Position numbers and translations under genes: made by a program. From Candidatus Fermentibacterota bacterium (GTDB lineage: Bacteria > JAFGKV01): DNA of 26,471 nucleotides. Positions 1,404 to 20,361 of the stretch are shown here, piece after piece. The notes below the pieces were generated by a model that saw only the letters and a program-made list of their open reading frames with translations, had not been told where the DNA came from and ran no database searches. Location: contig JAFGKV010000028.1 in the NCBI GenBank assembly GCA_016928395.1, positions 1 through 26,471 on the forward strand, written 5' to 3'. Within the stretch, counting starts at the first letter, position 1. Every line of letters begins with the position of its first letter.

Positions 1404-2965
1404 CTCTGGCTCTGGCCGTGCAGGCCGTCTGCGGGTTCGGAATATGCAGGATCGTGACCGACGCCACGTTGATTCCCGGCGCCAATGAGATCCAGGGGAT
1501 CGGCCCTCACTACCGGGTAACCCAGACCTTCACTCCCCCCCAGGAGCCCATCGCAGGGGTCGAACTCATGGTGTCGCGGCATCCCAAGACCCGTCCGTTG
1601 GACATAATGATCCGGGTGGCCGAAGGGGACCGGGAACTGGGGTGCGGCCTCCTGCCCATACCGTCCGGCGCGGTCATGCCGGTGCGTCTCGCGTTTCCTG
1701 CGACAGCGGCGGGCGGAAAGGTGACCATCGAAGCATGGGCTCCCCAGGGGTGTCCCGGCCACACCGCAGGCATACAGTTCTACCCGGTGGATCATTACCA
1801 CGGCGGCCAGTTGGCAGTAGGAGGCCGGCCGGTGACGGGTGATGCCGTCTTCAGGGTGCTGGCCCCGGATTCCAGCCGCTTTGTACTCCAGCCGGGGTTA
1901 GACTTCTCCATGGCGCCGGGACGATTCCCCAGTGAGGACCTCGGTGATGCCGGCTTTCTGGCCCAGGAGTTCGTCGTGCCGATGGACAGTCTGGCGGGGA
2001 TCGTTTTTGTGGCGGGCACCGGGGGCGCAACGGTGGGGCCCCCGCTGCGGTGGGAGCTTCTCTTGAATAGCCGAATGGTCCGCGAAGGCAGGGTGGAGGC
2101 GATTCGAGACAATGCACCCATCATCATTGATTTTCCGCCATTGCTGGTCGCCGAGGGGCTGCCGCTTACGCTTCGGCTCACCCCGTTGAGGCCAGGTGAA
2201 GTGCGCGTGTGGTTGTGCGGGCGGATGCCAGGTACCAGCATCCTGACCACGGGCGACCGGACTGGCGCCGGATCCTTGGCGCTGACCACGCTGCACCTGG
2301 CCCGGCGCGCGGATTCGCTGCGGGTCGTGTTGGCGGCGGACACCCCTCTCCTGCCGGAGCCTGGTCTCCTCCTCGTGGGATCATGCGTATTGACACAGAG
2401 CTTCTTGTGGCCAAGGGAGTCAACGGCGGGCGACCTGATAGGGCTGCGTCTTGCGCAGGGCGAATGGACCGCTCCCGGATGCCTGGCCTACCAGGTGCGG
2501 GACGATGAGCGGGGCGAAGTGGTGTATCAGGATAGCGTCGGGCTGGCAGGAAGGGGCTCCGATGACTATCTGTGGCTTCGCCTTGGTGGGCCGCACCAGG
2601 GGCGGAGGCTCTCGGTGTCTGTTACGGGGAGCGGCGCCACGACGGATGCCGCGCCACGGTTCTGGTGGATGCCGTCGGATGTCTACGGCGAAGGAGAGGC
2701 ACGCGGATGCGTGCCGAGACCCGGCGGCGATTGCGTGTTCCGATTGGCAACACGACACGCGGCAGGAGACTGGCTAAGGGAGTTGCCGCGGGTGGCGGGG
2801 ACCACGGTGCCAGGGAGGGAGACGGCCCTCGTGTGGCTTCTGGGGGCCCGGCTGGGTCTGATGGTCATGGGTACCCTGGTGCTCGTGGCCCACCGGATTA
2901 CGAAGGGGACCTTATCCTCACGGGCCACCCCTTTGCCAACGAGGATGGCGGGTTCGGGGCAATGA
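1388..2965 (+). CDS. Exported, membrane-anchored protein with three beta-sandwich-like repeats (paralog A)
   Basis: 525 residues. A signal peptide (about residues 1-18) is followed by three repeats of one module, at about 43-158, 190-305 and 328-454, and one C-terminal membrane helix (about 480-503) with a short basic tail. Each repeat opens with a Q-F-P motif: TQTFTPPQEP, AQEFVVPMDS, TQSFLWPRES. Repeats one and three close alike, with HYHGGQLAVGGRPVTGD and VYGEGEARG respectively, each ending in GD plus an FR strand. From memory, such Q-F plus GG/GD-FR modules occur in envelope proteins near glycosyltransferases and may bind carbohydrate; I cannot check that here. The ATG at 1388 was chosen because it gives the signal peptide; the frame is open upstream but would lie over the membrane-protein gene. 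No clear ribosome site is visible, which fits coupling to the overlapping upstream gene. Confidence 0.75.
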   Translation: MLPAVALALAVQAVCGFGICRIVTDATLIPGANEIQGIGPHYRVTQTFTPPQEPIAGVELMVSRHPKTRPLDIMIRVAEGDRELGCGLLPIPSGAVMPVRLAFPATAAGGKVTIEAWAPQGCPGHTAGIQFYPVDHYHGGQLAVGGRPVTGDAVFRVLAPDSSRFVLQPGLDFSMAPGRFPSEDLGDAGFLAQEFVVPMDSLAGIVFVAGTGGATVGPPLRWELLLNSRMVREGRVEAIRDNAPIIIDFPPLLVAEGLPLTLRLTPLRPGEVRVWLCGRMPGTSILTTGDRTGAGSLALTTLHLARRADSLRVVLAADTPLLPEPGLLLVGSCVLTQSFLWPRESTAGDLIGLRLAQGEWTAPGCLAYQVRDDERGEVVYQDSVGLAGRGSDDYLWLRLGGPHQGRRLSVSVTGSGATTDAAPRFWWMPSDVYGEGEARGCVPRPGGDCVFRLATRHAAGDWLRELPRVAGTTVPGRETALVWLLGARLGLMVMGTLVLVAHRITKGTLSSRATPLPTRMAGSGQ

Positions 2966-4380
2966 GGTGCCGACGTTCTAGAACCGGGCCGAGGTGCCCC
3001 GGCATGCGGCGGTACGGTCTTGCGGGGGTCATCTGGATGTTGTCCGTGGGCGACGGCGGTGCGGAATGCTCGATCTGGCGTATCGTTGTCGACGGTGCGA
3101 TGGTGCCTGCAGCCTATGAGATTCAGGAAGCAGGACCACTGCGCCGTGTTGTGCAAACCTTCACCCCTCCGCAGGAACCCATCGGGGGGGTTGAGCTGTT
3201 CGTGTCGCGTTATCCCAGAGATGAGCCTCTCGACCTGGCGATTCGGGTGACGCACGGAGAACAGGAACTCGGTTTCGGTCTCATTCCCATACCGTCCGGC
3301 GAGCCCATACCGGTGCGTCTCATATTTCCCCCGGTGGAACTCAGTGAAAGGGTCGCCATTGAGGCATGGGCTCCCCAGGGGCGGCCCGGCTGGAATGCCG
3401 CGATCCAGTTCTACCCGGTTGACCACTACTCGGGCGGCGAACTCTCTGTTGCCGGGAGACCTGTGGTGGGCGATGCAACATTTCGGGTACTCACGCCCGA
3501 CTCCAGCCGGTTCGGACTGGTACCGGGGTTGGATCTCTCATCCGTGCCAGGGAGGTTTCCCAGCCAGAGGCTCTCATCCTCCGGCAGCCTTGTTCAGGAG
3601 TTCATCGTCCCGCTGGACAGCCTGGCGGGAGTCGAATTCCTGGCGGGCACTGGAGGCGTGGCACTGGGGCCGCCGCTGGCATGGGAACTGATGCGGGACG
3701 GTATCACCATTCATCGCGGAACCATCGAGGCCACCTTTGACAATGTGCCGGTCAGGCTATGCTTTCCCCCTGTGCTGGAGGCCAAAGACGCTACCTTCGC
3801 GCTGCGGCTCTCCTTGGTGGGCGCTGGCGAACTACGGCTATGGCTCTGCGGCCGAGGGATTGGCACGGGCCCGTTGACTGTGTGCGACCGTCTGGTGGAT
3901 GGATCCCTGGTCTTGACCTCGCTCCATCTGAACGAACGAACCGACTCATTGAGAGTGGCGCTGGCCGCGGACGTGCCGCCATCGCCTGAGCCCGGGCTCC
4001 TTCTTGCTGGTTCCTGCGTGCTGACGCAGAGCTTTCTGTGGCCCCGAGAACCCGGGGACTTCGACCACATCGGGCTGCGCTTGGCCCTGGGTGAAGGTAT
4101 GGTCGTTGGCTCACTGGTCTATGCAGTACGGGATGAACTGAGCGGAGGCGAAGTGCACCGGGACACCGTCGAGGTGGGCGGCAGGGGCAGGGATGACTAT
4201 GTGTGGTTTTCCTTGGGCACGGCTCCTCGGGGCCGGAGGCTTTCGGTATCAGTATCCGGAGACGGGGCAAAGGCAGAGACAGCGGGGCGGTTCTGGTGGA
4301 TGCCGGCCGATGTGTACGGCGAGGGGGAGGCAATCGGTTGCGTGGCGAGGGCGGGTGGGGACTGCGTCTTCAGATTGGCG
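1441..4380 (+). repeat. Tandem gene duplication of the triple-module exported protein
   Basis: The block from about 1441-2750 is repeated at about 3073-4380, an offset of about 1630 bases, with similarity visible in both DNA and protein. For example, an identical 18-base stretch encoding EAWAPQG occurs in both copies near 1732 and 3364. The copies have diverged mostly by substitutions, with few indels, and both reading frames stay intact. Confidence 0.8.
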
Positions 4381-4548
4381 GAAGGCACTTCGCTGACGCG
4401 GTGGGCTCTCGAGTTTCCACGGCTGTCCACCCAGTTGGCGCCGGCCATTTCTGCTCCCGCATTGACAGGGTTGCTGTATGTCCGCCTGGCGCTGGTCGGC
4501 GTCCTCGGGCTGGCGGTATGCGTGGGCCGTCGCGTCAATGAGGAGTGA
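3004..4548 (+). CDS. Exported, membrane-anchored protein with three beta-sandwich-like repeats (paralog B)
   Basis: 514 residues, co-linear with the preceding gene almost without gaps; in the stretches I lined up about two thirds of residues match. It has an N-terminal hydrophobic signal (about residues 5-20), the same three modules (openings VQTFTPPQEP, VQEFIVPLDS, LTQSFLWPRE) and a C-terminal helix with a basic end (GRRVNEE). The most conserved stretches are IEAWAPQG, QFYPVDHY and FWWMP. ATG 3004 is preferred because GAGGTG lies at 2991-2996, seven bases upstream. An in-frame ATG at 2962 overlaps the previous stop as ATGA and would add 14 arginine-rich residues, so it remains possible. The pair is a tandem duplication retained as two intact, diverged genes, which suggests distinct but related jobs or a heteromeric complex. 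The function is not known. Confidence 0.75.
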   Translation: MRRYGLAGVIWMLSVGDGGAECSIWRIVVDGAMVPAAYEIQEAGPLRRVVQTFTPPQEPIGGVELFVSRYPRDEPLDLAIRVTHGEQELGFGLIPIPSGEPIPVRLIFPPVELSERVAIEAWAPQGRPGWNAAIQFYPVDHYSGGELSVAGRPVVGDATFRVLTPDSSRFGLVPGLDLSSVPGRFPSQRLSSSGSLVQEFIVPLDSLAGVEFLAGTGGVALGPPLAWELMRDGITIHRGTIEATFDNVPVRLCFPPVLEAKDATFALRLSLVGAGELRLWLCGRGIGTGPLTVCDRLVDGSLVLTSLHLNERTDSLRVALAADVPPSPEPGLLLAGSCVLTQSFLWPREPGDFDHIGLRLALGEGMVVGSLVYAVRDELSGGEVHRDTVEVGGRGRDDYVWFSLGTAPRGRRLSVSVSGDGAKAETAGRFWWMPADVYGEGEAIGCVARAGGDCVFRLAEGTSLTRWALEFPRLSTQLAPAISAPALTGLLYVRLALVGVLGLAVCVGRRVNEE

Positions 4549-4840: not shown

Positions 4841-4876
4841 CTTGAGCTATCCCCGAGGGGAGTGCCCCTCAAGAAG
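4841..4876 (+). promoter_or_regulatory. Hairpin-forming leader upstream of pal with alternative pairings
   Basis: GAGGGG (4855-4860), loop AGTG and CCCCTC (4865-4870) form a six-pair stem. The second arm can instead pair as CTCAAG with CTTGAG at 4841-4846, so the two pairings exclude each other. No T-run follows, so it is not a standard intrinsic terminator for the upstream genes. It may stabilise or regulate the pal transcript, or be chance in GC-rich DNA. Confidence 0.3.
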
Positions 4877-4928
4877 TCCTGCTGTCGTGGGCCAAGATCA
4901 GACAGACTGCCCGCAAGGAGGTTGGGTC

Positions 4929-5429
4929 GTGAAAGGAAAACTGCTGCTGGTGTTCGTTGTTGCTGTTGCTGGCCTCGTGGTGGCATGTGGAGGTGGAGCA
5001 AAGCGCGTCACGCCGACGGCTCCTCCCGTACCCGAGGTCACGCCCGAGCCGGTGAGCCCTGTAGAGGTTCCGGTGGAGCCCCCGCAGGCGCAGCTGGCAT
5101 TGATGCCCATCTACTTTGACTATGATCGTAGCGATGTCAAAGCAAATCAGCGGGGCCCTCTGGCCGACAACGCCAAGGCAATCGAGGCGGATGGCGGGAT
5201 CGCACGGGTGATCATCGAGGGTCACTGTGATGAGCGGGGCACCAACGAATACAACATGGCCTTGGGCCAGCGTCGTGCGGACAGCGTGAAGAACTACTTT
5301 GTGAACTACGGCATTCCCAAGACCAAGCTTTCGACGGTGAGCTACGGTGAAGACCGCCCCGTGGATCCGGGCCATACCGAGGAAGCCTGGGCACGGAATC
5401 GCAGAGCCGAGTTCATCATCCAGAAGTAG
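4929..5429 (+). CDS. pal: Peptidoglycan-associated lipoprotein Pal
   Basis: 166 residues. An N-terminal lipoprotein signal ends in the lipobox VVAC, with the lipidated cysteine at residue 20. A proline- and glutamate-rich linker follows, then an OmpA-like peptidoglycan-binding domain (about 58-165). The hallmark stretches are present: IYFDYDRSDVKANQ, IEGHCDERGTNEYN, LGQRRADSV and NRRAEFIIQ, which include the conserved Asp and Arg that hold diaminopimelate in this fold. Pal anchors the outer membrane to the cell wall and binds TolB. Start GTG 4929 is set by AAGGAGG at 4915-4921, seven bases upstream, and puts a normal signal peptide at the N-terminus; an upstream in-frame start would add 29 non-signal residues. 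Pal is the first gene of the set here rather than the fifth. Confidence 0.95.
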   Translation: MKGKLLLVFVVAVAGLVVACGGGAKRVTPTAPPVPEVTPEPVSPVEVPVEPPQAQLALMPIYFDYDRSDVKANQRGPLADNAKAIEADGGIARVIIEGHCDERGTNEYNMALGQRRADSVKNYFVNYGIPKTKLSTVSYGEDRPVDPGHTEEAWARNRRAEFIIQK

Positions 5430-5497
5430 TCGTCGCCTTTGTACGACCTCCCCGGCCGGTGGGGATGGGGAGATTGGGGGTTAATGGAGTGATCAAC

Positions 5498-6211
5498 ATG
5501 CGTGCCTTGGTCCTTTCTATGGTGGTCTTCGTCGGAGGATGCGGCGGCAGCGCCCAATTCCAGGGGCACCTGGCGGCGCTGGAAGCTCGGGTAGTGTCCC
5601 TGGAAAAGTCGTTTGCTGCGCTGGAGAAGCGCACTGCAGGAGACGATGTGAGACAACAGAGCGCCGATGTGCGTCTGGCGCTGGCGACCATGGACGAGAT
5701 GAGTGCCCGCGTGCAGTCCATGACCCAGGACCTCGAGCAACGCCACCGGGATGTCGCAGTCTTGCTTGACGACCTCACGAGCCGTGTGATGAAGCTGGAG
5801 AGCGCCTCCGCCGAGAGTGCCGGCCCGCGAGTGGACGCATCGGCCAAAGAGATGTTCGACAGGGCCCGAACTGATCTGGATGCCGGCAGGACAGAGCTGG
5901 CTGCCATGGGATTTCGTTCCTTCATTGAACAGTACCCAGGAAGCTCTTTGGCCGCCGATGCGCAGTTCTTGATCGGTGAGACGTTCTATGTTCGTGATCA
6001 GTTTGAAGATGCTCGGATAGAATACCAGAAGGTAGTTGACCAGTATCCGTCCGGCACGAAGCGCCCGTTGGCCATGCTTCGTGCCGGAATCTGTCTTGCC
6101 AATACGGGGAGATCCGACCAGGCCGCGGCGACTCTTCGGCGTCTCATCGAGACCTACCCCGGCACCAATGAGGCCGCTGCGGCACGGGAGCGACTGGCGG
6201 ATTTCCAGTAA
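5498..6211 (+). CDS. cpoB: Tol-Pal accessory protein CpoB/YbgF, lipoprotein form
   Basis: 237 residues. A short signal ends in VGGC (Cys15), so the protein looks lipidated, whereas the E. coli protein is periplasmic and soluble. Residues about 20-115 form a heptad-rich coiled coil, the trimerisation segment of this family. Residues about 125-237 hold three TPR-like units with the YbgF pattern (FRSFIEQYPGSSLAADAQF, then EYQKVVDQYPSG, then LRRLIETYPGTNEAAAARE). In E. coli CpoB coordinates PBP1B activity with Tol-driven outer-membrane constriction. ATG 5498 is preferred because GGAG (5486-5489) lies eight bases upstream and the lipobox follows directly. It sits between pal and tolQ. Confidence 0.9.
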   Translation: MRALVLSMVVFVGGCGGSAQFQGHLAALEARVVSLEKSFAALEKRTAGDDVRQQSADVRLALATMDEMSARVQSMTQDLEQRHRDVAVLLDDLTSRVMKLESASAESAGPRVDASAKEMFDRARTDLDAGRTELAAMGFRSFIEQYPGSSLAADAQFLIGETFYVRDQFEDARIEYQKVVDQYPSGTKRPLAMLRAGICLANTGRSDQAAATLRRLIETYPGTNEAAAARERLADFQ

Positions 6212-6269
6212 TCGCGCTGCGTATTCCTCTCCTCCCATGCCGGTGCCCGGGACGTCGGAGTAATTGAGT

Positions 6270-6953
6270 ATGCCTGTGTCCATGATGGAGGGCGCAGTCC
6301 GCATGGTCGCGGACTGCGACGGCGTAGCCAAAGCCATCTTGCTTGTGCTTTTCGTCATGTCCATCATCTCGTGGGCCGTGATCATCGAGCGGACGGCCAC
6401 TTTTCGACAGAACCAGAAGAACGTCGATACCTTTCTTAAGGCCTTCCGTTCCTATTCTCGCCTGTCACATCTTCTTGTCTATCAGAGCCATTCGGTCGGC
6501 GGGGCCATCTCCCGGGTGTTCGAGGAAGGATGCTCGGAGATTCCTTATTTGGTGCAGAAAGACATTCATCCCACGGCGATTTCAGACGAGCACCTCCACC
6601 GCATTCGCAGCGCCCTGGATAGACGGATTGGCGTGGAGATAGCCAACCTGGAGCGCAATCTGTTCTTTCTGGCGACCACCAGCACCGCGGGGCCGTCGCT
6701 GGGGTTTTTCGGCACGGTGTGGGGGATCCAGAACTCCTTCATGATGATGGGTTACAGCCGTACTACTGACATCCTCGTGATCGGTCCCGGCATTGCCATG
6801 GCACTGGTGACCACCGTGGCGGGTCTTCTCGCCGCGATCCCCGCGCTGGCGGCGTACAACTACCTTATCAACAGAGTAAAGAACTTCGATATCGAGCTCA
6901 ACAACTTCGCATCGGAATTCCTTGACACGCTGGCGAAGGGCTCGAAGATATGA
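6270..6953 (+). CDS. tolQ: TolQ, proton-channel subunit of the Tol system (MotA/TolQ/ExbB family)
   Basis: 227 residues with three membrane helices: about 20-40, 135-155 and 170-195. Family signatures are visible: AGPSLGFFGTVWGIQNSF (TM2 region) and GIAMALVTTVAGLLAAIPA followed by AYNYLINR (TM3), including the threonine and proline that line the proton path. TolQ pentamers surround a TolR dimer in the inner membrane and use the proton motive force to move TolA. ATG 6270 is chosen because GGAG (6257-6260) lies nine bases upstream; the in-frame TTG at 6264 would be only three bases from that site. The stop overlaps the tolR start as ATGA. Confidence 0.95.
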   Translation: MPVSMMEGAVRMVADCDGVAKAILLVLFVMSIISWAVIIERTATFRQNQKNVDTFLKAFRSYSRLSHLLVYQSHSVGGAISRVFEEGCSEIPYLVQKDIHPTAISDEHLHRIRSALDRRIGVEIANLERNLFFLATTSTAGPSLGFFGTVWGIQNSFMMMGYSRTTDILVIGPGIAMALVTTVAGLLAAIPALAAYNYLINRVKNFDIELNNFASEFLDTLAKGSKI

Positions 6954-7342
6954 AACAGCTACGGTACAACGCCATTGCAGAGATGAATATGACTTCAATG
7001 GTGGACGTGATATCAATCATTTTGATAATGTACATGATTGCTGCTCCTGCAATGCAAAGTGGTCTTGAAATTCAACTTCCGAAGGCGCATGCAAGAGAAG
7101 TTGATGTTGAGAGTGGTATCGTAATAACCCTGACAGCCGAGGGCAAGGTGTTCTTGGGCGAGCTGGAGATTCAGCCGTCGATGATCGAGGACGCGCTCAC
7201 ACGCATCCGCCAGGCTGGCCGGGAGCGACCCGTGTTCATCAGGGCAGACCAGAATCTGGCCTACGGCAGGGTCTTGGACGTTATCTCCCATGTGAAGACC
7301 GCGGGAGTCTACAATGTGGGGCTGGTTACCGAGGCTGGGTAA
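6950..7342 (+). CDS. tolR: TolR, ExbD/TolR family
   Basis: 130 residues: one N-terminal membrane helix (about 16-36) and a periplasmic domain. The motif AEMNMTSMVDVISIIL carries Asp19, the proton-carrying aspartate of the family. The helix is unusually methionine-rich (MNMTSM, IMYMIAAPAM), where relatives usually have leucine or valine. The domain ends with FIRADQNLAYGRVLDVI, typical of ExbD/TolR. The gene overlaps tolQ (ATGA) and its end overlaps tolA by 29 bases. Bases 6961-7140 are only about 43% GC by direct count (77 of 180) against 67% at 7201-7260, with A/T-ending codons including ATA, AGA and TCA. The composition returns to normal within the same reading frame. Confidence 0.93.
   Translation: MKQLRYNAIAEMNMTSMVDVISIILIMYMIAAPAMQSGLEIQLPKAHAREVDVESGIVITLTAEGKVFLGELEIQPSMIEDALTRIRQAGRERPVFIRADQNLAYGRVLDVISHVKTAGVYNVGLVTEAG
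6961..7135 (+). other. AT-rich, atypical-codon patch inside tolR
   Basis: This patch of about 175 bases covers TolR residues about 5-62. It averages about 43% GC in a gene whose second half is about 65% GC. Codon third positions switch from G/C to A/T at the left edge and back again near 7135. The reading frame and the TolR signature are intact, so it is neither a sequence error nor a broken gene. Confidence 0.7.
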
Positions 7343-7997
7343 GCGGATTGCCCGCGCGAGCGCCGATACGCGGCGTGGACCCGGGCGGCGCCTCGTGTGT
7401 GAGCGTCTTCCCCTGGGGGCGTTTGTCTTGGTGTCCCTTCTGGGGCACATGCTAGTGGTGGCGCTTGGCGTCAGGCTTGTCTCTCCGGCCCGAGCTACGC
7501 CGGCGGCCCCCGAGTTTGTCGCAGTGGACATTGTGGAGCTTGAGCCCAAGGCAGCCACTGACCGCACGCGGGATGCGCCGTCGCCCAAAGCCGCGGCGCC
7601 AGAACCCGAGTGGAAGCCGGATCGGATCGAACAGGCGGTCCCGCAGCCTGTCCAGACCACTGAGAGCGACATTCGCGATGGCAAGAAGAGCACTGTTGAG
7701 CTGGACACGGACTTTCCATTTCTTTACTATCTCACCATGGTCCGTAACAAGATCTCATCAAACTGGCTTCCTCCCCGGGCTTCCAGCAGTGCGGGCACCA
7801 TTCGCACCAAGCTGCACTTCGTGATTCAGCGGGGCGGCCAAGTGACGAGAGTTGTCGTGGAGGAGACCTCGGGCGTACCGTTCTTCGATCAGTCAGCTCT
7901 GCGGGCCGTCTATGCGTCGGACCCGTTGCCCCCGCTCCCTGAGGAGTTCTCGGATGCTGAATTGGGCGTGCATTTCTCCTTTGAGTTCCTCCACTAG
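7314..7997 (+). CDS. tolA: TolA/TonB-like energy transducer
   Basis: 227 residues. A basic cytoplasmic N-terminus, one membrane helix (about 34-56) and a proline-, alanine- and glutamate-rich periplasmic stretch are followed by a C-terminal TonB-type domain (about 140-227). Its landmarks are NKISSNWLPP, HFVIQRGGQVTRVVVEETSG, FDQSALRAV and the closing FSFEF strand. The protein is about half the length of E. coli TolA (421 residues) and lacks its long alanine/lysine helix, so it resembles TonB in build. Its place between tolR and tolB makes the TolA role most likely. ATG 7314 has GGGAG at 7303-7307, six bases upstream; the gene overlaps tolR by 29 bases and tolB by 44. Confidence 0.85.
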   Translation: MWGWLPRLGKRIARASADTRRGPGRRLVCERLPLGAFVLVSLLGHMLVVALGVRLVSPARATPAAPEFVAVDIVELEPKAATDRTRDAPSPKAAAPEPEWKPDRIEQAVPQPVQTTESDIRDGKKSTVELDTDFPFLYYLTMVRNKISSNWLPPRASSSAGTIRTKLHFVIQRGGQVTRVVVEETSGVPFFDQSALRAVYASDPLPPLPEEFSDAELGVHFSFEFLH

Positions 7998-9273
7998 ACT
8001 CCCGCGTCTCTCCGCGGGAATGATTTTGCTGGGTGTGTGCCTCGTCATGGCTGTGCCCGCCGAGGGGCAACGTGAAGTCGAAATGGGGATCCGAGAGACA
8101 GGTGCTCGTCGGATGGACATCATCCTCGGCGAGTTCCAAGATGAGCGGGTGATGGGGGAGGACCGCCCGGTATTCGACGTTATCAGGCAGGATTTGGAGC
8201 TGTCCGGCTACTTCAGAGTCTTGGACGGGCTCGAGCTGGTGCGAGATTGGCTTGACAGCACTGAGGTCAGGGCCAAGTGGGCCACTATCGGGGCAGATGC
8301 ACTGCTGGAAGGGAAGGTTGAGCGTTCGGGAAAGGACTTCCGCCTCCATGCCTATCTATCTGATTTGGCCAGCGGTCGACTGGTTGCCCGCCGAACCATG
8401 GAGGGGCCCGACCCACGCCGGATCGCACACTCCGCGTCAGATGAAGTCGTGAAAGTGCTCACAGGGGAGCGCGGCATCGCGGCGACCCGGGTGGCATTCA
8501 TCTTGGACCAGGGCACCCGTTCCGAACTGTGCATCGCCGATTATGACGGCCACAATATGCGACAGTTGACGAACACGGGAGTCCTCAAGTTTGGGTCGGC
8601 ATGGTCTCCCGATGATGATGTGATCGCGTTTTCCGCGTTGATCGATCCGAGTCCCGATCTGTTCTTCTGGTCGTTTCCCGAGAGCCGCATGAAGAGGATC
8701 ACCAACTTCCCTGGGCTTGTCGCCGGTGCCTCATGGAGCCGCGACGGAAAGAAGCTGGCTCTCACACTGACCAAAGACGGCGACTCAGAGATCTACATAA
8801 TGAATCGTGATGGCAGCGGTCTTCGCCGGGTGACCCGGCATCCCGCCATCGACTGCTCACCCTCCTGGGCGCCCAGCGGGCGTGAGATCGCCTTCACTTC
8901 GGATCGGTCGGGAAGCCCGCAGATCTACGTTACCGATCTCGACGGCACCGAGTTGCGGCGGTTGACGTTCTCGGGAGGGTACAATGAATCAGCGGCGTGG
9001 TCGCCAAGGGGTGACCGCATCGCCTATGTCGCCAAGGAGGCCGGCTTCTTCGATGTGTGGGTCATTGATCCCATGGGGCGTCACCGGAGACGAATCACTT
9101 TTAAGGGGACGAGCAACGAAGATCCCGCCTGGGCGCCGGATGGCCGACATCTGATCTACGTAAGCACCCGCCGGTACCAGAAGGAACTGGTACTCACGGA
9201 CGTTGGGGGCCGGATCGAGCACGTGCTCCCGCTGGGCCGAGGCGACAAGGAAGAGCCGAGCTGGTCGCCGTAG
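7954..9273 (+). CDS. tolB: TolB, periplasmic beta-propeller of the Tol-Pal system
   Basis: 439 residues, close to the usual 430. A signal peptide (hydrophobic core MILLGVCLVMAVPA, residues 23-36) leads to an alpha/beta N-terminal domain (about 45-165; DVIRQDLELSGYFRVLD is typical). A propeller of PD40/WD40-like repeats follows, with blades marked by AWSPDDDVIAF, SWSRDGKKLAL, SWAPSGREIAF, AWSPRGDRIAY and AWAPDGRHLIY. TolB binds Pal and TolA during outer-membrane invagination. ATG 7954 has GAGGAG at 7941-7946, seven bases upstream, and overlaps tolA by 44 bases. Starts at TTG 7981 or ATG 8020 would also leave a signal peptide but lack such a site. This is the last gene of the Tol block; 115 bases separate it from the next. 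Confidence 0.93.
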   Translation: MLNWACISPLSSSTRLPRLSAGMILLGVCLVMAVPAEGQREVEMGIRETGARRMDIILGEFQDERVMGEDRPVFDVIRQDLELSGYFRVLDGLELVRDWLDSTEVRAKWATIGADALLEGKVERSGKDFRLHAYLSDLASGRLVARRTMEGPDPRRIAHSASDEVVKVLTGERGIAATRVAFILDQGTRSELCIADYDGHNMRQLTNTGVLKFGSAWSPDDDVIAFSALIDPSPDLFFWSFPESRMKRITNFPGLVAGASWSRDGKKLALTLTKDGDSEIYIMNRDGSGLRRVTRHPAIDCSPSWAPSGREIAFTSDRSGSPQIYVTDLDGTELRRLTFSGGYNESAAWSPRGDRIAYVAKEAGFFDVWVIDPMGRHRRRITFKGTSNEDPAWAPDGRHLIYVSTRRYQKELVLTDVGGRIEHVLPLGRGDKEEPSWSP

Positions 9274-16012: not shown

Positions 16013-16777
16013 ATGCAGAGACCTGTCGCGGGTACAGCCCTCTTGGTTGACGTGGGTAACTCCGCCGTCAAGGCCCGCGTGTGGAGCCCCCATCAAGGTC
16101 TAGGGCACGGCGAAGTGTGGCCGGCGGGCGGCGCCTTCCATCCCGGAGAGCTATTCACTGGCCGGTATGATGCCGTTGTCATGGCATCGGTGGTGCCGGC
16201 CTTGGGGTCTCGGATCGTGGCCATGGCGTCGAAACTGGGGCTCGTGGTGCATTCGGTGACGCCCGACGCGGCGGAATCCGGGGCTTTGATACGGGGTCTC
16301 TATGAAGGCATGGGTCAGGACAGGGTCGCGGATGCCGTCGCCCTGTCGGGGCTCTTTCCGCTCCCGGCTCTGGTGGTTGATGCAGGCACCGCGGTGACCG
16401 TGGATCTCGTGGCGGAGGGAGGCGTGTATGCCGGAGGGCTCATCGTCCCTGGGCCTAAGCTCATGATTCGCTCGCTGGCGTCCGGTACGGCCCTTCTGAA
16501 GGGCGTGGAACCCAATGGCGCCGGGCCCGTCCTCGCTACCGACACGGTGTCAGCGGTGGCTGGCGGGGCGCATTGGGGAAGCATCTGCATGATCCAGGGA
16601 CTCTTGAATCTGGTGGAGTCCCGGGGATACCGCTGGCGGTCCTTGGTGCTCACGGGAGGTGACTCGAAACGGGTCTCTCGCGATCTCACGCGGGAGCATG
16701 TGGTAGACCATGACCTCTGCTTTAAGGGGATGGCTCTTGTCTGGCAATCATTGTACGCTGGCACTGACGCCGGGTGA
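16013..16777 (+). CDS. coaX: Type III pantothenate kinase
   Basis: 254 residues, typical of the family. It phosphorylates pantothenate in the first step of CoA synthesis. Visible motifs: LLVDVGNSAVK (ATP phosphate loop, D13-S17), GQDRVADAVAL with Asp103 as the likely catalytic base, VVDAGTAVTVDLV (123-133), the PGPKLMIRSL segment for the substrate and dimer interface, and LTGGDS near the C-terminus. The ATG at 16013 lies four bases after the birA stop with no strong ribosome site, so coupling is likely. Its end overlaps pdxA by 41 bases if pdxA starts at 16737. Confidence 0.95.
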   Translation: MQRPVAGTALLVDVGNSAVKARVWSPHQGLGHGEVWPAGGAFHPGELFTGRYDAVVMASVVPALGSRIVAMASKLGLVVHSVTPDAAESGALIRGLYEGMGQDRVADAVALSGLFPLPALVVDAGTAVTVDLVAEGGVYAGGLIVPGPKLMIRSLASGTALLKGVEPNGAGPVLATDTVSAVAGGAHWGSICMIQGLLNLVESRGYRWRSLVLTGGDSKRVSRDLTREHVVDHDLCFKGMALVWQSLYAGTDAG

Positions 16778-17675
16778 CCCCCAGGGCATCGGGCCGGACG
16801 TTGTCGTCCGGGCGGCGGTCGCATTCGATATGCCTCGGGTGGAACTGGTGCTCTACGGCCCCGCCTCGGCCTGGGAAGGCCATGTGGCGCCATCGAGCCC
16901 ATGGAGGCGCGTGGAGCTGCCTGAGCCCCCCTATCAGCGAGAATCGCTGCGCGCCCCCTCAGCGTGGGGAGGAAGCGTCGCCATGACCTCACTTGAAGCG
17001 GCCGTGCGCGACGCCATGGCGGGCACGGTCAGCGCCGTGGTCACGGGCCCGGTGAGCAAGCAAAGCATCCATTTGGCGGGATACGCGTATCCGGGTCAAA
17101 CCGAATATCTGGCGGCACTCACCGCCGCGCAGGATTGGGCGATGATGCTGGCCCACGGGCGTCATCGAGTACTCCTGGCAACGCGTCATCTTCCCCTGCG
17201 TGATGTGCCGGACGCACTCCGTACGGATGATCTCGCAAGGCTCTTTCTGCTGGCTGATCGAGAACTCGGGATGCTGCTGGGGAGGAGGCCCCGCATCCTT
17301 GTCTGCGGCCTCAACCCCCACGCGGGGGACGGCGGCCTCGTAGGCAAGGAGGAAGTAACGGTCATCACTCCGGCCGTGGCCGAGGCGGCGCGGCAGGGCT
17401 GCCTGATTCAGGGGCCAGTCTCCGCCGAGGAGGTTTTCATGCGATGGGGAGGGGGTGCGGATGTGGCGATTGCCATGTATCACGATCAGGGTGCACTCCC
17501 GGTCAAGCTGCTGGGGTTGGGCAGTGCAGTGAATGTAACCTTGGGCCTGCCCATCGTACGAACAAGCCCGGGGCACGGCACCGCGTTCGGTCTGGCCGGT
17601 ACGGGGCAGGCCAGTGCGCGCAGCCTGGGCGCGGCGCTGCGCTGGGCCGTCGCCTTGGTCCGTCGTCGGTCATGA
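16737..17675 (+). CDS. pdxA: 4-hydroxythreonine-4-phosphate dehydrogenase PdxA
   Basis: 312 residues. It oxidises 4-phosphohydroxy-threonine in the DXP-dependent PLP pathway, with PdxJ acting next (pdxJ lies at 22049). Motifs: TPGDPQGIGPD, VTGPVSK, and the three metal-binding histidines in ATRHLPLRDV (His151), GLNPHAGDGG (His195) and MYHDQG (His249), plus VNVTLGLPIVRTSPGHGTAF. One conserved substrate-contact motif differs: GHTE reads GQTE (Gln121). I place the start at TTG 16737 because AAGGGGA (16724-16730) lies six bases upstream and the protein then starts close to the first strand. ATG 16710 is the alternative and has no site at proper distance. The stop overlaps the FtsE-like gene as ATGA. 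Confidence 0.93.
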   Translation: MSGNHCTLALTPGDPQGIGPDVVVRAAVAFDMPRVELVLYGPASAWEGHVAPSSPWRRVELPEPPYQRESLRAPSAWGGSVAMTSLEAAVRDAMAGTVSAVVTGPVSKQSIHLAGYAYPGQTEYLAALTAAQDWAMMLAHGRHRVLLATRHLPLRDVPDALRTDDLARLFLLADRELGMLLGRRPRILVCGLNPHAGDGGLVGKEEVTVITPAVAEAARQGCLIQGPVSAEEVFMRWGGGADVAIAMYHDQGALPVKLLGLGSAVNVTLGLPIVRTSPGHGTAFGLAGTGQASARSLGAALRWAVALVRRRS

Positions 17676-18397
17676 TTCGGCTCATCAAGGTCTCCTTCGG
17701 GGCGCAACGGCCAAACCGGGGCATTCGTCAGGTGTCGCTGCACGTACCCCGGGGCACCATGGGTCTCATCGTGGGCTCCATGGGCGCGGGGAAGACCCTG
17801 GTGCTGCGACTCTGCGCGGGATGGTCCCTCCCCGAGGAGGGCAGCGTACTGATCGACGGAAGAGACACCAAGGAAATGAGCGGTACCCAACTCAGAAGGC
17901 TCCGCCGGACCATGGGAATCGCCAGCATGGATCTTCCGCTTCTGGATACGCACTCAGTGCTGGACAATGTGGGAGCGGCCCTGGAGGTTCGAGGGATCCG
18001 CCAGCGCGCAGCCGTTCGCGCAGCGCTTCGCACGCTGGAGACTCTGGGAGTCCTGAGCCTGGCCTCCGCTCGGCCTCCCGACCTATCCTCGGGTGAGCGC
18101 CGACTCGTGGCGCTGGCCAGAGCAACCGCGGCCCGGCCTCCCATAGTCTTGGCGGATGGGCCCCTTGAGACTCTACCACCCGAGTACGTCTCAAACGCAG
18201 TGGATCTTCTGTCTGATCTAGTGTCGGCCGGGAGCTGTGTGCTCATGTCCAGCCGTAGCGGCGCTCACGTTCCGGAAGGCGCCCGGGTCTGGCTTCTACG
18301 CGATGGCACTATCGGGCCGTACCAGGAGGCCGCTTCACAGGTGGGGGTGCACACCAGTTCTCTGGTGGAGGCCTTGCTGAAGGGGGGGTGGACCTAA
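17672..18397 (+). CDS. FtsE-like ABC ATPase, apparently hydrolysis-deficient
   Basis: 241 residues, co-transcribed with an FtsX-like gene, which fixes the FtsE assignment. Walker A is intact (GSMGAGKT, 35-42), the signature is LSSGE (138-142) and the Walker B aspartate is present (IVLAD162). Key catalytic positions differ from FtsE: the Walker B glutamate is Gly163 (ADGP instead of ADEP), the Q-loop glutamine is Met86 (ASMDLPLL instead of VFQD-LL), the H-loop histidine is Arg195 (LMSSRS instead of ATHD), and the D-loop is diverged (ETLPPE instead of GNLDPE). It should therefore bind ATP but hydrolyse it poorly or not at all. The frame is intact with normal codon use, so it is not a decaying pseudogene. 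FtsEX controls peptidoglycan hydrolases at the septum in other bacteria; a nucleotide-binding switch is a possible role here. Confidence 0.85.
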   Translation: MIRLIKVSFGAQRPNRGIRQVSLHVPRGTMGLIVGSMGAGKTLVLRLCAGWSLPEEGSVLIDGRDTKEMSGTQLRRLRRTMGIASMDLPLLDTHSVLDNVGAALEVRGIRQRAAVRAALRTLETLGVLSLASARPPDLSSGERRLVALARATAARPPIVLADGPLETLPPEYVSNAVDLLSDLVSAGSCVLMSSRSGAHVPEGARVWLLRDGTIGPYQEAASQVGVHTSSLVEALLKGGWT

Positions 18398-18399
18398 GC

Positions 18400-19260
18400 A
18401 TGGGTCTGGCCGTGAGGATGATCCGTACTGCCTTCGCCGTGCTGCGGAGCAACCCTGGCGCATGGATCGAAAGCGTGGCGTGGTATTGCGCTCTCACCTG
18501 TGCCGTGCTTTGCGGCGCTGCTGCCCTGGACGTGGCATGCACCGCGTCCCGTCTCATGGAGGATTCGGCAGGCGTCCACGTGTTTCTGGCGCCGGATGCC
18601 CTGGGGCTCGCCGCATTGGATCAGGCTATCGAAGCCCTTCCCGGGGTACGGGATGCGCGGTTTGTGGTACGCCATGTCTCCGCCAGTGGTGCCGACTCCC
18701 CCGGTAGTGTCCACACACCCGGCAGTGTGCCCCGTCAAGCCTTGTACGTGCGGACCACGTCGGTGGATGCCGACAGCCTGGCGGTCTTGGCCGGTGCGAT
18801 CCATTCCTTCCCACAGGTTGATGAGGTCCTCTATTCCTCGGATTTTCTGGGAAGCGCAGCGGGAGTCGTGGCCTCCTGCCGATACGTGGCGGGTGCCGCC
18901 TGGGGCGCGGTGGCGCTGCTGGCGCTGGTGGCAGGGAGATGGTGTTGTGCGGGCCTTGTTCGGCTCTTCGGGACGCAGGCCATGGTCGCGTCGCTACTGG
19001 GTGGATCGTGGTGGGCAGCGGCGGCTCCAGTGATCATCGCCGGGGCATCGGCCGGCGCCGTGGGATCTCTCCTTGGGTGGGTTCTGGTCGGGGGGATGGC
19101 CACCACTGGCACCACCCTCGCCCACGAGGCTCTCCGCCGTGTCGGCACCATCGGCCCCATGGTGACGGGGAGTACCACCGGTCTGGGGGCCTTGGGGTCT
19201 CTCGTGGGCGCCACCCGAGTCATATCGGGCAGATCTCTCCGGCGGCGCCACGAGGAGTAG
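18400..19260 (+). CDS. ftsX: FtsX-like cell-division permease
   Basis: 286 residues with FtsX topology: a cytoplasmic N-terminus with an LRSNP segment, TM1 (about 22-46), an extracytoplasmic domain (about 50-155) and three further helices. The outer domain shows the FtsX succession: GVHVFLAPDA, ALPGVRDARFVV, QALYVRTTSVDADSL and FPQVDEVLYSSDF, matching the usual lpgV-v and pgV-dV-yg pattern. The last helices are rich in glycine and alanine (ASLLGGSWWAAAAPV). FtsX relays signals from FtsE to periplasmic wall hydrolases. ATG 18400 lies two bases after the ftsE-like stop; GTG 18388 is in frame but abuts the purine run that would be its ribosome site. Sequence conservation is low, so the call rests on topology, the outer domain and context. 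Confidence 0.78.
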   Translation: MGLAVRMIRTAFAVLRSNPGAWIESVAWYCALTCAVLCGAAALDVACTASRLMEDSAGVHVFLAPDALGLAALDQAIEALPGVRDARFVVRHVSASGADSPGSVHTPGSVPRQALYVRTTSVDADSLAVLAGAIHSFPQVDEVLYSSDFLGSAAGVVASCRYVAGAAWGAVALLALVAGRWCCAGLVRLFGTQAMVASLLGGSWWAAAAPVIIAGASAGAVGSLLGWVLVGGMATTGTTLAHEALRRVGTIGPMVTGSTTGLGALGSLVGATRVISGRSLRRRHEE

Positions 19261-19269
19261 GAGGACGCG

Positions 19270-20361
19270 GTGAACGTCTTTGATGCCATCAAAGGTCAAA
19301 CATGGGCTGTGGGCTACCTTAGGCGGGCCGGGGCGGCGGGCCGCTTGTCGCAGACCCTCATCTTCCACGGCCCGCCCTATGTTGGCAAAGAGACCGCCGC
19401 TATGGCGTTGGCGTCGTGGTGGCTTTGCGACCGTGAATCAGGGTGCGGCGTCTGTCCTTCTTGCCGCCAGGTCGCGACATACCAACATCCTGATTTCCAC
19501 TATGTGTTTCCCTGCCCGGCCTCATGGTATGAGGATCCCGTGCAGATCGGCGAGATCGTGGCGCAGCGCTGGATGCCGGAGCACCGGCTGGGGGAACCGC
19601 TGACGGATCCGAATCTCACCATCAGCATTGAGGCGGTACGCGGACTTATCCGGGCCGCCGCCCGCACTCCCTTCGGCGGGAGGGCCAGGGTGATCATCAT
19701 CAGGAGCGCAGAACGGCTTCGGGAAGAGGCGCAGAACGCCTTTCTCAAGCTCCTGGAGGATGCTCCTTCCCATGTGCGGATTGTGCTCCTGACCACGAAT
19801 ATGGAACGGATGCTGCCCACCGTGCGGTCACGGGCCTACCACATTCGCTTTGTTGCCTTGGGCAAAGACGACTGGATCAGTGTGTTCCGCTCGCTGCATT
19901 CCGTGGATCTCTCCACGGCCGAGCTTCTGTACCGGCTTTCCGGGGCGTCCCTGGCCAGGGCTGCCTCCCTTCTGTCTGAAGACGAGGCCCTCCGCCAGCT
20001 CCCCATGACGCTCTTCACCCAGGATTCCTCTCCTGGCGCCTGGGCTTTTGCGGTGATGGAGCACATGGGTCCGAGGGTGGAGAGGGATGACCTAGATCGG
20101 TTTCTGGATTTCACCCTGTTATGGCTGCGCGACATAATGGTATGGCGTGGAACGAAGAATCCGATGCTCTTGTTGAATTTGGATGCGGCCGACGCCATCG
20201 CCGACATTGCGACTCGTGTCGATCTTGCGCTCATTCTACGCTTGATCTCGGAACTCGAGTCGCTGCGACAGGCATCGCGGTTGAATCTCGATCCGCGGCT
20301 CGTGTGCCATCGCATCGAGCGGCTCATGACCCGATCACAGCTTATTGGAGGTCACGGGTGA
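19270..20361 (+). CDS. holB: DNA polymerase III clamp-loader subunit delta-prime
   Basis: 363 residues. AAA+ N-terminal domain with GPPYVGKET (34-42) as the P-loop and four cysteines at 53, 59, 62 and 65, the same kind of zinc module as in gamma/tau and delta-prime. The sensor region NAFLKLLEDAPSHVRIVLLT is highly typical. The arginine-finger motif SRC reads SRA (TVRSRAYHI): the arginine is kept and the cysteine replaced. The C-terminal helical domain follows. Delta-prime helps load the sliding clamp. GTG 19270 has TAGGAGGA at 19258-19265. The end overlaps ricT as GTGA, the holB-ricT pairing known from Bacillus and many others. Confidence 0.93.
   Translation: MNVFDAIKGQTWAVGYLRRAGAAGRLSQTLIFHGPPYVGKETAAMALASWWLCDRESGCGVCPSCRQVATYQHPDFHYVFPCPASWYEDPVQIGEIVAQRWMPEHRLGEPLTDPNLTISIEAVRGLIRAAARTPFGGRARVIIIRSAERLREEAQNAFLKLLEDAPSHVRIVLLTTNMERMLPTVRSRAYHIRFVALGKDDWISVFRSLHSVDLSTAELLYRLSGASLARAASLLSEDEALRQLPMTLFTQDSSPGAWAFAVMEHMGPRVERDDLDRFLDFTLLWLRDIMVWRGTKNPMLLLNLDAADAIADIATRVDLALILRLISELESLRQASRLNLDPRLVCHRIERLMTRSQLIGGHG

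Follow-up and report, generated by a model that had tools for sequence, protein, structure and literature searches.

An ftsE-like gene with an intact frame lies directly upstream of a very divergent ftsX in a Candidatus Fermentibacterota genome and encodes a catalytically degenerate ATPase of 241 aa. It occupies 17672..18397 (+ strand) of the window, the whole 26,471-nucleotide stretch analyzed here. We put a probability of roughly 0.55 on the reading that this protein belongs to an FtsEX pair as its FtsE, and that the pair lost its ATPase cycle in the phylum's ancestor, leaving a nucleotide-holding tether for FtsX.

Gene identity, active-site residues, and constraint

The translation of the gene is an ABC ATPase (PF00005, E=1.7e-21). 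Among curated ABC families in NCBIfam its top match is TIGR02673 (FtsE) at 132 bits, with the runner-up at 88. The phylum was compared via three species from two genera, namely the window species, G001 (same genus), and G002 (same family), and TIGR02673 is the top family for the G001 and G002 orthologs as well. Scores of 132 (window), 141 (G001), and 118 bits (G002) fall below the curated cut-off of 264.85 bits, a threshold cleared by only 7 of 14 control genomes. All three genomes have the order pdxA, ftsE, ftsX, holB. The pdxA gene (16710..17675, + strand) overlaps ftsE by 4 bp, and holB (DNA polymerase III delta-prime; 19270..20361, + strand) follows ftsX. An earlier sequence-only reading had described an intact gene in an operon, paired with FtsX, and the frame and the shared gene order agree with it. 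AF2 models of the three FtsE proteins had a pLDDT of 40 and were unusable.

The Gln, Glu, and His positions were set by alignment with solved FtsE structures and with 101 FtsE encoded beside FtsX. Window numbering equals that of Escherichia coli FtsE (K41, D162, E163), and all coordinates below are on the + strand. The complete ATPase motif set (A-, Q-, D-, and H-loop, Walker A and B, signature) is not present in the window protein. Walker A (GSMGAGKT, 17774..17797; Lys41 codon AAG by direct read) and Walker B Asp162 (GAT, 18155..18157) are intact in all three species, and the signature LSSGE (18083..18097) is intact in the alignment; the sequence-only reading had likewise listed the P-loop, signature, and Asp as kept. 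Codons and alignment also agree with its report of replacements at three positions, each ~100% conserved in 86 canonical FtsE. Met86 (ATG, 17927..17929) stands for the Q-loop Gln, where G001 has Glu (FVSED) and G002 has Asn (IVSNQ). Arg195 (CGT, 18254..18256) stands for the H-loop His, which is Arg in G001 (IAGR) and Gln in G002 (IARQ). Gly163 (GGG, 18158..18160) stands for the catalytic Walker B Glu, which is present in both relatives (LADE in G001, VDES in G002). The D-loop, described earlier as diverged, is lost in all three species, the region up to and including it (18164..18181) reading LETLPP in the window protein versus TGNLDP. A further change, absent from the earlier account, is Ala11 (17702..17704) at the A-loop position, which is an aromatic Tyr or Phe in 98 of 107 aligned FtsE. 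G001 has Ser and G002 has Gly there, and both relatives lack a normal D-loop as well as the A-loop aromatic.

The 86 canonical FtsE have 37 positions with at least 90% conservation, which were compared across the phylum. Twenty are intact in all three species, including Gly35, Gly38, Gly40, Lys41, Ser139, Gly141, and Asp162, and seven are missing from every species (Gln86, Leu127, Thr165, Gly166, Asn167, Thr194, and His195). Phosphate-gripping and dimer-closing residues stay, and gamma-phosphate-sensing, site-coupling, and catalytic residues are gone. Because these losses are common to the three species and Glu163 remains in G001 and G002, the phylum ancestor would most simply have already lacked the Gln, D-loop, His, and A-loop aromatic, with the Glu probably lost later, in the window species only. 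Conservation of the substitutions across the clade, proposed earlier as support, thus holds for the Gln, His, and D-loop losses and fails for Glu163. Canonical residues in relatives, named as grounds for refutation, occur at position 163 alone (GAA in G001 and G002).

Window FtsE is 51% identical to the G001 protein and 40% to the G002 protein, versus 71 and 57% for PdxA and 67 and 52% for HolB. In the shared block, few genes evolve as fast as FtsE and FtsX, and FtsX is the least conserved. Eleven canonical same-family FtsE pairs are 59–98% identical; divergence in this phylum exceeds all 11. The stem branch of the phylum's FtsE in the FtsE protein tree is 1.72 changes per column. The frames are nonetheless intact and 241–243 aa long in the three species. 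Codon positions 1, 2, and 3 are identical at 65, 70, and 34% between the window gene and G001, and at 51, 64, and 32% between the window gene and G002. Position 2 is the most and position 3 the least conserved in every pairwise comparison, and purifying selection therefore still acts on ftsE. The intact frames and codon-position bias rule out a pseudogene. General laxity of ABC proteins in the window genome was also rejected, as most sampled nucleotide-binding domains (NBDs) with complete motifs retain the Glu and His, a tally that leaves out Q-loop Glu or Asp, which also occurs in distant ABC subfamilies of this genome.

The same genome has a second degenerate ABC ATPase, an MlaF-like NBD between MlaE-like and MCE-domain genes (G000:C294, L220:5385-6044, − strand). 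In this protein the catalytic Glu is replaced by Asn (LFDNP) and the H-loop His by Ser (SATSS), and the signature reads LAPGE.

FtsX partner and divisome genes

In all three genomes, ftsE is directly upstream of ftsX. The window ftsX (18388..19260, + strand) encodes 286–290 aa, an alternative ATG start at 18400 being equally possible, and its product is modeled with a membrane helix, a periplasmic domain, and C-terminal helices. The periplasmic domain lies approximately at 18568..18837 (+ strand), based on a sub-threshold Pfam ECD alignment of residues 63–147, the AF2 model, and Foldseek. No family is matched at cut-off, PF18075 giving 11.8 bits versus a gathering score of 23.5. The G002 ortholog reaches 23.6 bits for PF18075 with neighbors in the frame and matches TIGR00439 (2.4e-20) and PF02687 (2.5e-8). 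With the window FtsX model (pLDDT 65), all eight Foldseek matches below 1e-3 were FtsEX complexes, with E values down to 6e-7. As modeled, the protein downstream of ftsE has an FtsX fold.

FtsZ was found by family search and has a typical C-terminal tail; it was not detected in G001, an 82% complete genome. FtsI, FtsW, FtsQ, and FtsA were read from frames beside ftsZ, and amidases and M23 proteins are present. The divisome around FtsEX looks complete. No long coiled-coil EnvC-type protein was recognized. By reading, Pal- and CpoB-like genes precede tolQRAB in the window (4842-9273); in E. coli they come after. Tandem paralogous genes at 971-2965 and 2572-4548 share a stretch like QTFTPPQEPI.GVEL.VSR.

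Proposed tether function and its alternatives

On the favored reading, FtsE would still dimerize under FtsX and could hold nucleotide, with ATP hydrolysis very slow or nil. FtsEX would be a fixed tether placing the FtsX periplasmic domain at the FtsZ/FtsA ring, and any cell-wall hydrolase or activator bound by FtsX would be positioned along with that domain. Synthesis and hydrolysis of the septal cell wall would be controlled by other factors. After loss of the cycle, the remaining catalytic residues would be free to decay, as Gly163 may illustrate. In E. coli, FtsEX binds the FtsZ tail, acts on FtsA, and recruits EnvC without hydrolysis, and needs hydrolysis for lifting the block on septal synthesis and for full EnvC activity (PMC7343993, PMC12505981). 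With FtsEX unable to block FtsA, a non-hydrolyzing E. coli mutant still promotes cell separation (PMC7343993). A natural FtsE without hydrolysis residues fits the hydrolysis-independent roles and so suggests a tether that keeps FtsX and its partner in place at the ring.

Such a protein would need compensating changes, because E. coli FtsE K41A and E163Q do not complement (PMC7668044) and D162N blocks division (PMC7343993). Residual hydrolysis is possible in G001 and G002, as the catalytic Glu is kept there. Loss of the A-loop aromatic and the Q-loop could also abolish ATP binding, and nucleotide holding would then not be needed. The sequence-only reading had suggested an ATP-binding, non-hydrolyzing switch; this is doubtful because reset without hydrolysis would be possible by ATP dissociation alone, and a static scaffold is the better fit.

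The window protein resembles FtsE of the FtsEX of E. coli, V. cholerae, P. aeruginosa, M. tuberculosis, and S. pneumoniae in best family, similar length, FtsX operon pairing, Walker A, signature, and Walker B Asp. It differs from them in lacking the A-loop aromatic, Q-loop Gln, D-loop, H-loop His, and catalytic Glu and in scoring below the curated cut-off. The degenerate sites of heterodimeric exporters (TAP, MRP1, CFTR NBS1, and Pdr5) also have the Walker B Glu and/or H-loop His replaced in a folded ABC site, and ATP can stay bound there unhydrolyzed. Those complexes, however, contain a second, canonical site, whereas both sites of the FtsE dimer would be degenerate here because no canonical partner was found. 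Engineered E. coli E163Q and D162N are likewise predicted not to hydrolyze ATP, through changes in the same active site, and E163Q keeps FtsX binding; these are harmful laboratory mutants, whereas the state in this phylum is natural and fixed.

Alternatives to the tether were ranked as a weak ATPase, then a decaying relic, then a heterodimer. That a slow, non-canonical cycle persists, with other residues standing in for the Gln, the His, and, in the window species, the Glu, is unlikely. The catalytic Glu of G001 and G002 fits such a cycle, and a role for nucleotide is implied by the Walker A, signature, and Asp162 that remain. ABCC1 mutants with Gln or Asn at the H-loop keep near wild-type transport (review, PMC7756269), and G002 has Gln at this position. 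However, Gln, D-loop, His, and A-loop were lost together, with Glu added in the window species, and the Gln, Glu, and His positions are nearly invariant in canonical FtsE. No precedent was found for Arg at the H-loop His position. An FtsEX losing function altogether, its protein drifting towards loss, would account for the low conservation of FtsX and FtsE within the shared block and for the long stem branch, and decay extends to the P-loop in another lineage (L139). We judge it rather improbable given near-equal frames in three species of two genera, an unbroken operon, the codon-position bias, and the 20 near-invariant residues still in place.

The sequence-only reading had also offered a heterodimer, in which a second, canonical FtsE-like ATPase gives an active site to the same FtsX, and had proposed a search of the genome for a canonical ftsE. 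ABC heterodimers with one degenerate site are common (PMC7756269), and nine other FtsE-like ATPases of the window genome outscore the window FtsE on the FtsE model. The search returned no second FtsEX, however. Four of the five best-scoring of these ATPases are close to ~400-aa MacB/Lol-type, FtsX-like permeases, and none of the phylum's three genomes yielded a second FtsX with an extracellular domain, which makes this arrangement highly improbable. Least credible is that Gly163 is an assembly artefact of the window's genome bin. The residue is private to this species, its GGG codon differs from GAA by two bases and from GAG by one, and the genome is a 343-contig assembly; the frame and all neighboring motifs are nevertheless clean, and two independent genomes share the Gln and His losses.

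FtsE beside FtsX in other bacteria

FtsE is described as highly conserved with all motifs (PMC11627006, PMC7791547), and a single degenerate site in heterodimeric ABC proteins is well known (PMC7756269). No report of natural catalytic-residue loss in FtsE was found in a literature search from which most subscription journals were out of reach, which is weak evidence of novelty. FtsE was read in other bacteria at loci found through the FtsX extracellular domain, a bait that does not depend on the state of FtsE. FtsX was found in 129 of 241 sampled genomes, and 120 loci were read. FtsE lies within ~1.5 kb upstream at 101 of these, and 100 are readable at all three positions. Fourteen (~14%) lack at least one of the Gln, Glu, and His; His is lost in 13, Gln in 6, and Glu in 4. 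All 14 retain Asp162, and 13 retain the Walker A Lys. These proteins (e.g., L139, L168, L189, L173, and L190) resemble the window FtsE in lying upstream of FtsX and in having lost His and often Gln or Glu. They differ in belonging to other lineages, and several also lack the signature Gly or the P-loop. Some of the 14 may still be active, because a single loss (e.g., His to Gln or Asn) need not abolish activity. Motifs are far gone in L139 (G207), L190 (G081), L197 (G145), L189 (G098), and L173 (G236), and L139 has no recognizable P-loop, Gln, Glu, or His.

On the FtsE protein tree, 17 non-canonical sequences need 11 changes (bootstraps 10–11), and at least 4 are forced by well-supported branches alone. 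Given the poor resolution of this tree and possible long-branch attraction, the only safe statement is that FtsE catalytic residues appear to have been lost several times independently. We tentatively propose, at somewhat under even odds, that bacterial FtsE has evolved into a pseudo-ATPase on several occasions, turning an ATP-cycled FtsEX mechanotransmitter into an ATP-independent scaffold. The H-loop His would be lost first, then Gln or Glu, then the signature and P-loop, and hydrolysis would not be a universal FtsEX requirement. Non-hydrolyzing E. coli FtsE mutants are as bad as absent FtsEX in several assays. A natural FtsE lacking the hydrolysis residues would set tethering apart from the ATP cycle, and the non-canonical FtsE offer a set of independent lineages in which to seek a replacement for that cycle.

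At 19 of the 120 FtsX loci no FtsE lies within ~1.5 kb upstream; one is cut by a contig end, leaving 18. They include L079, L087, L095, L106, L107, and L155, and searching with greater sensitivity revealed no degenerate FtsE upstream of these FtsE-less loci. The FtsX-domain score is marginally lower in genomes with a degenerate FtsE (Mann-Whitney p=0.051).
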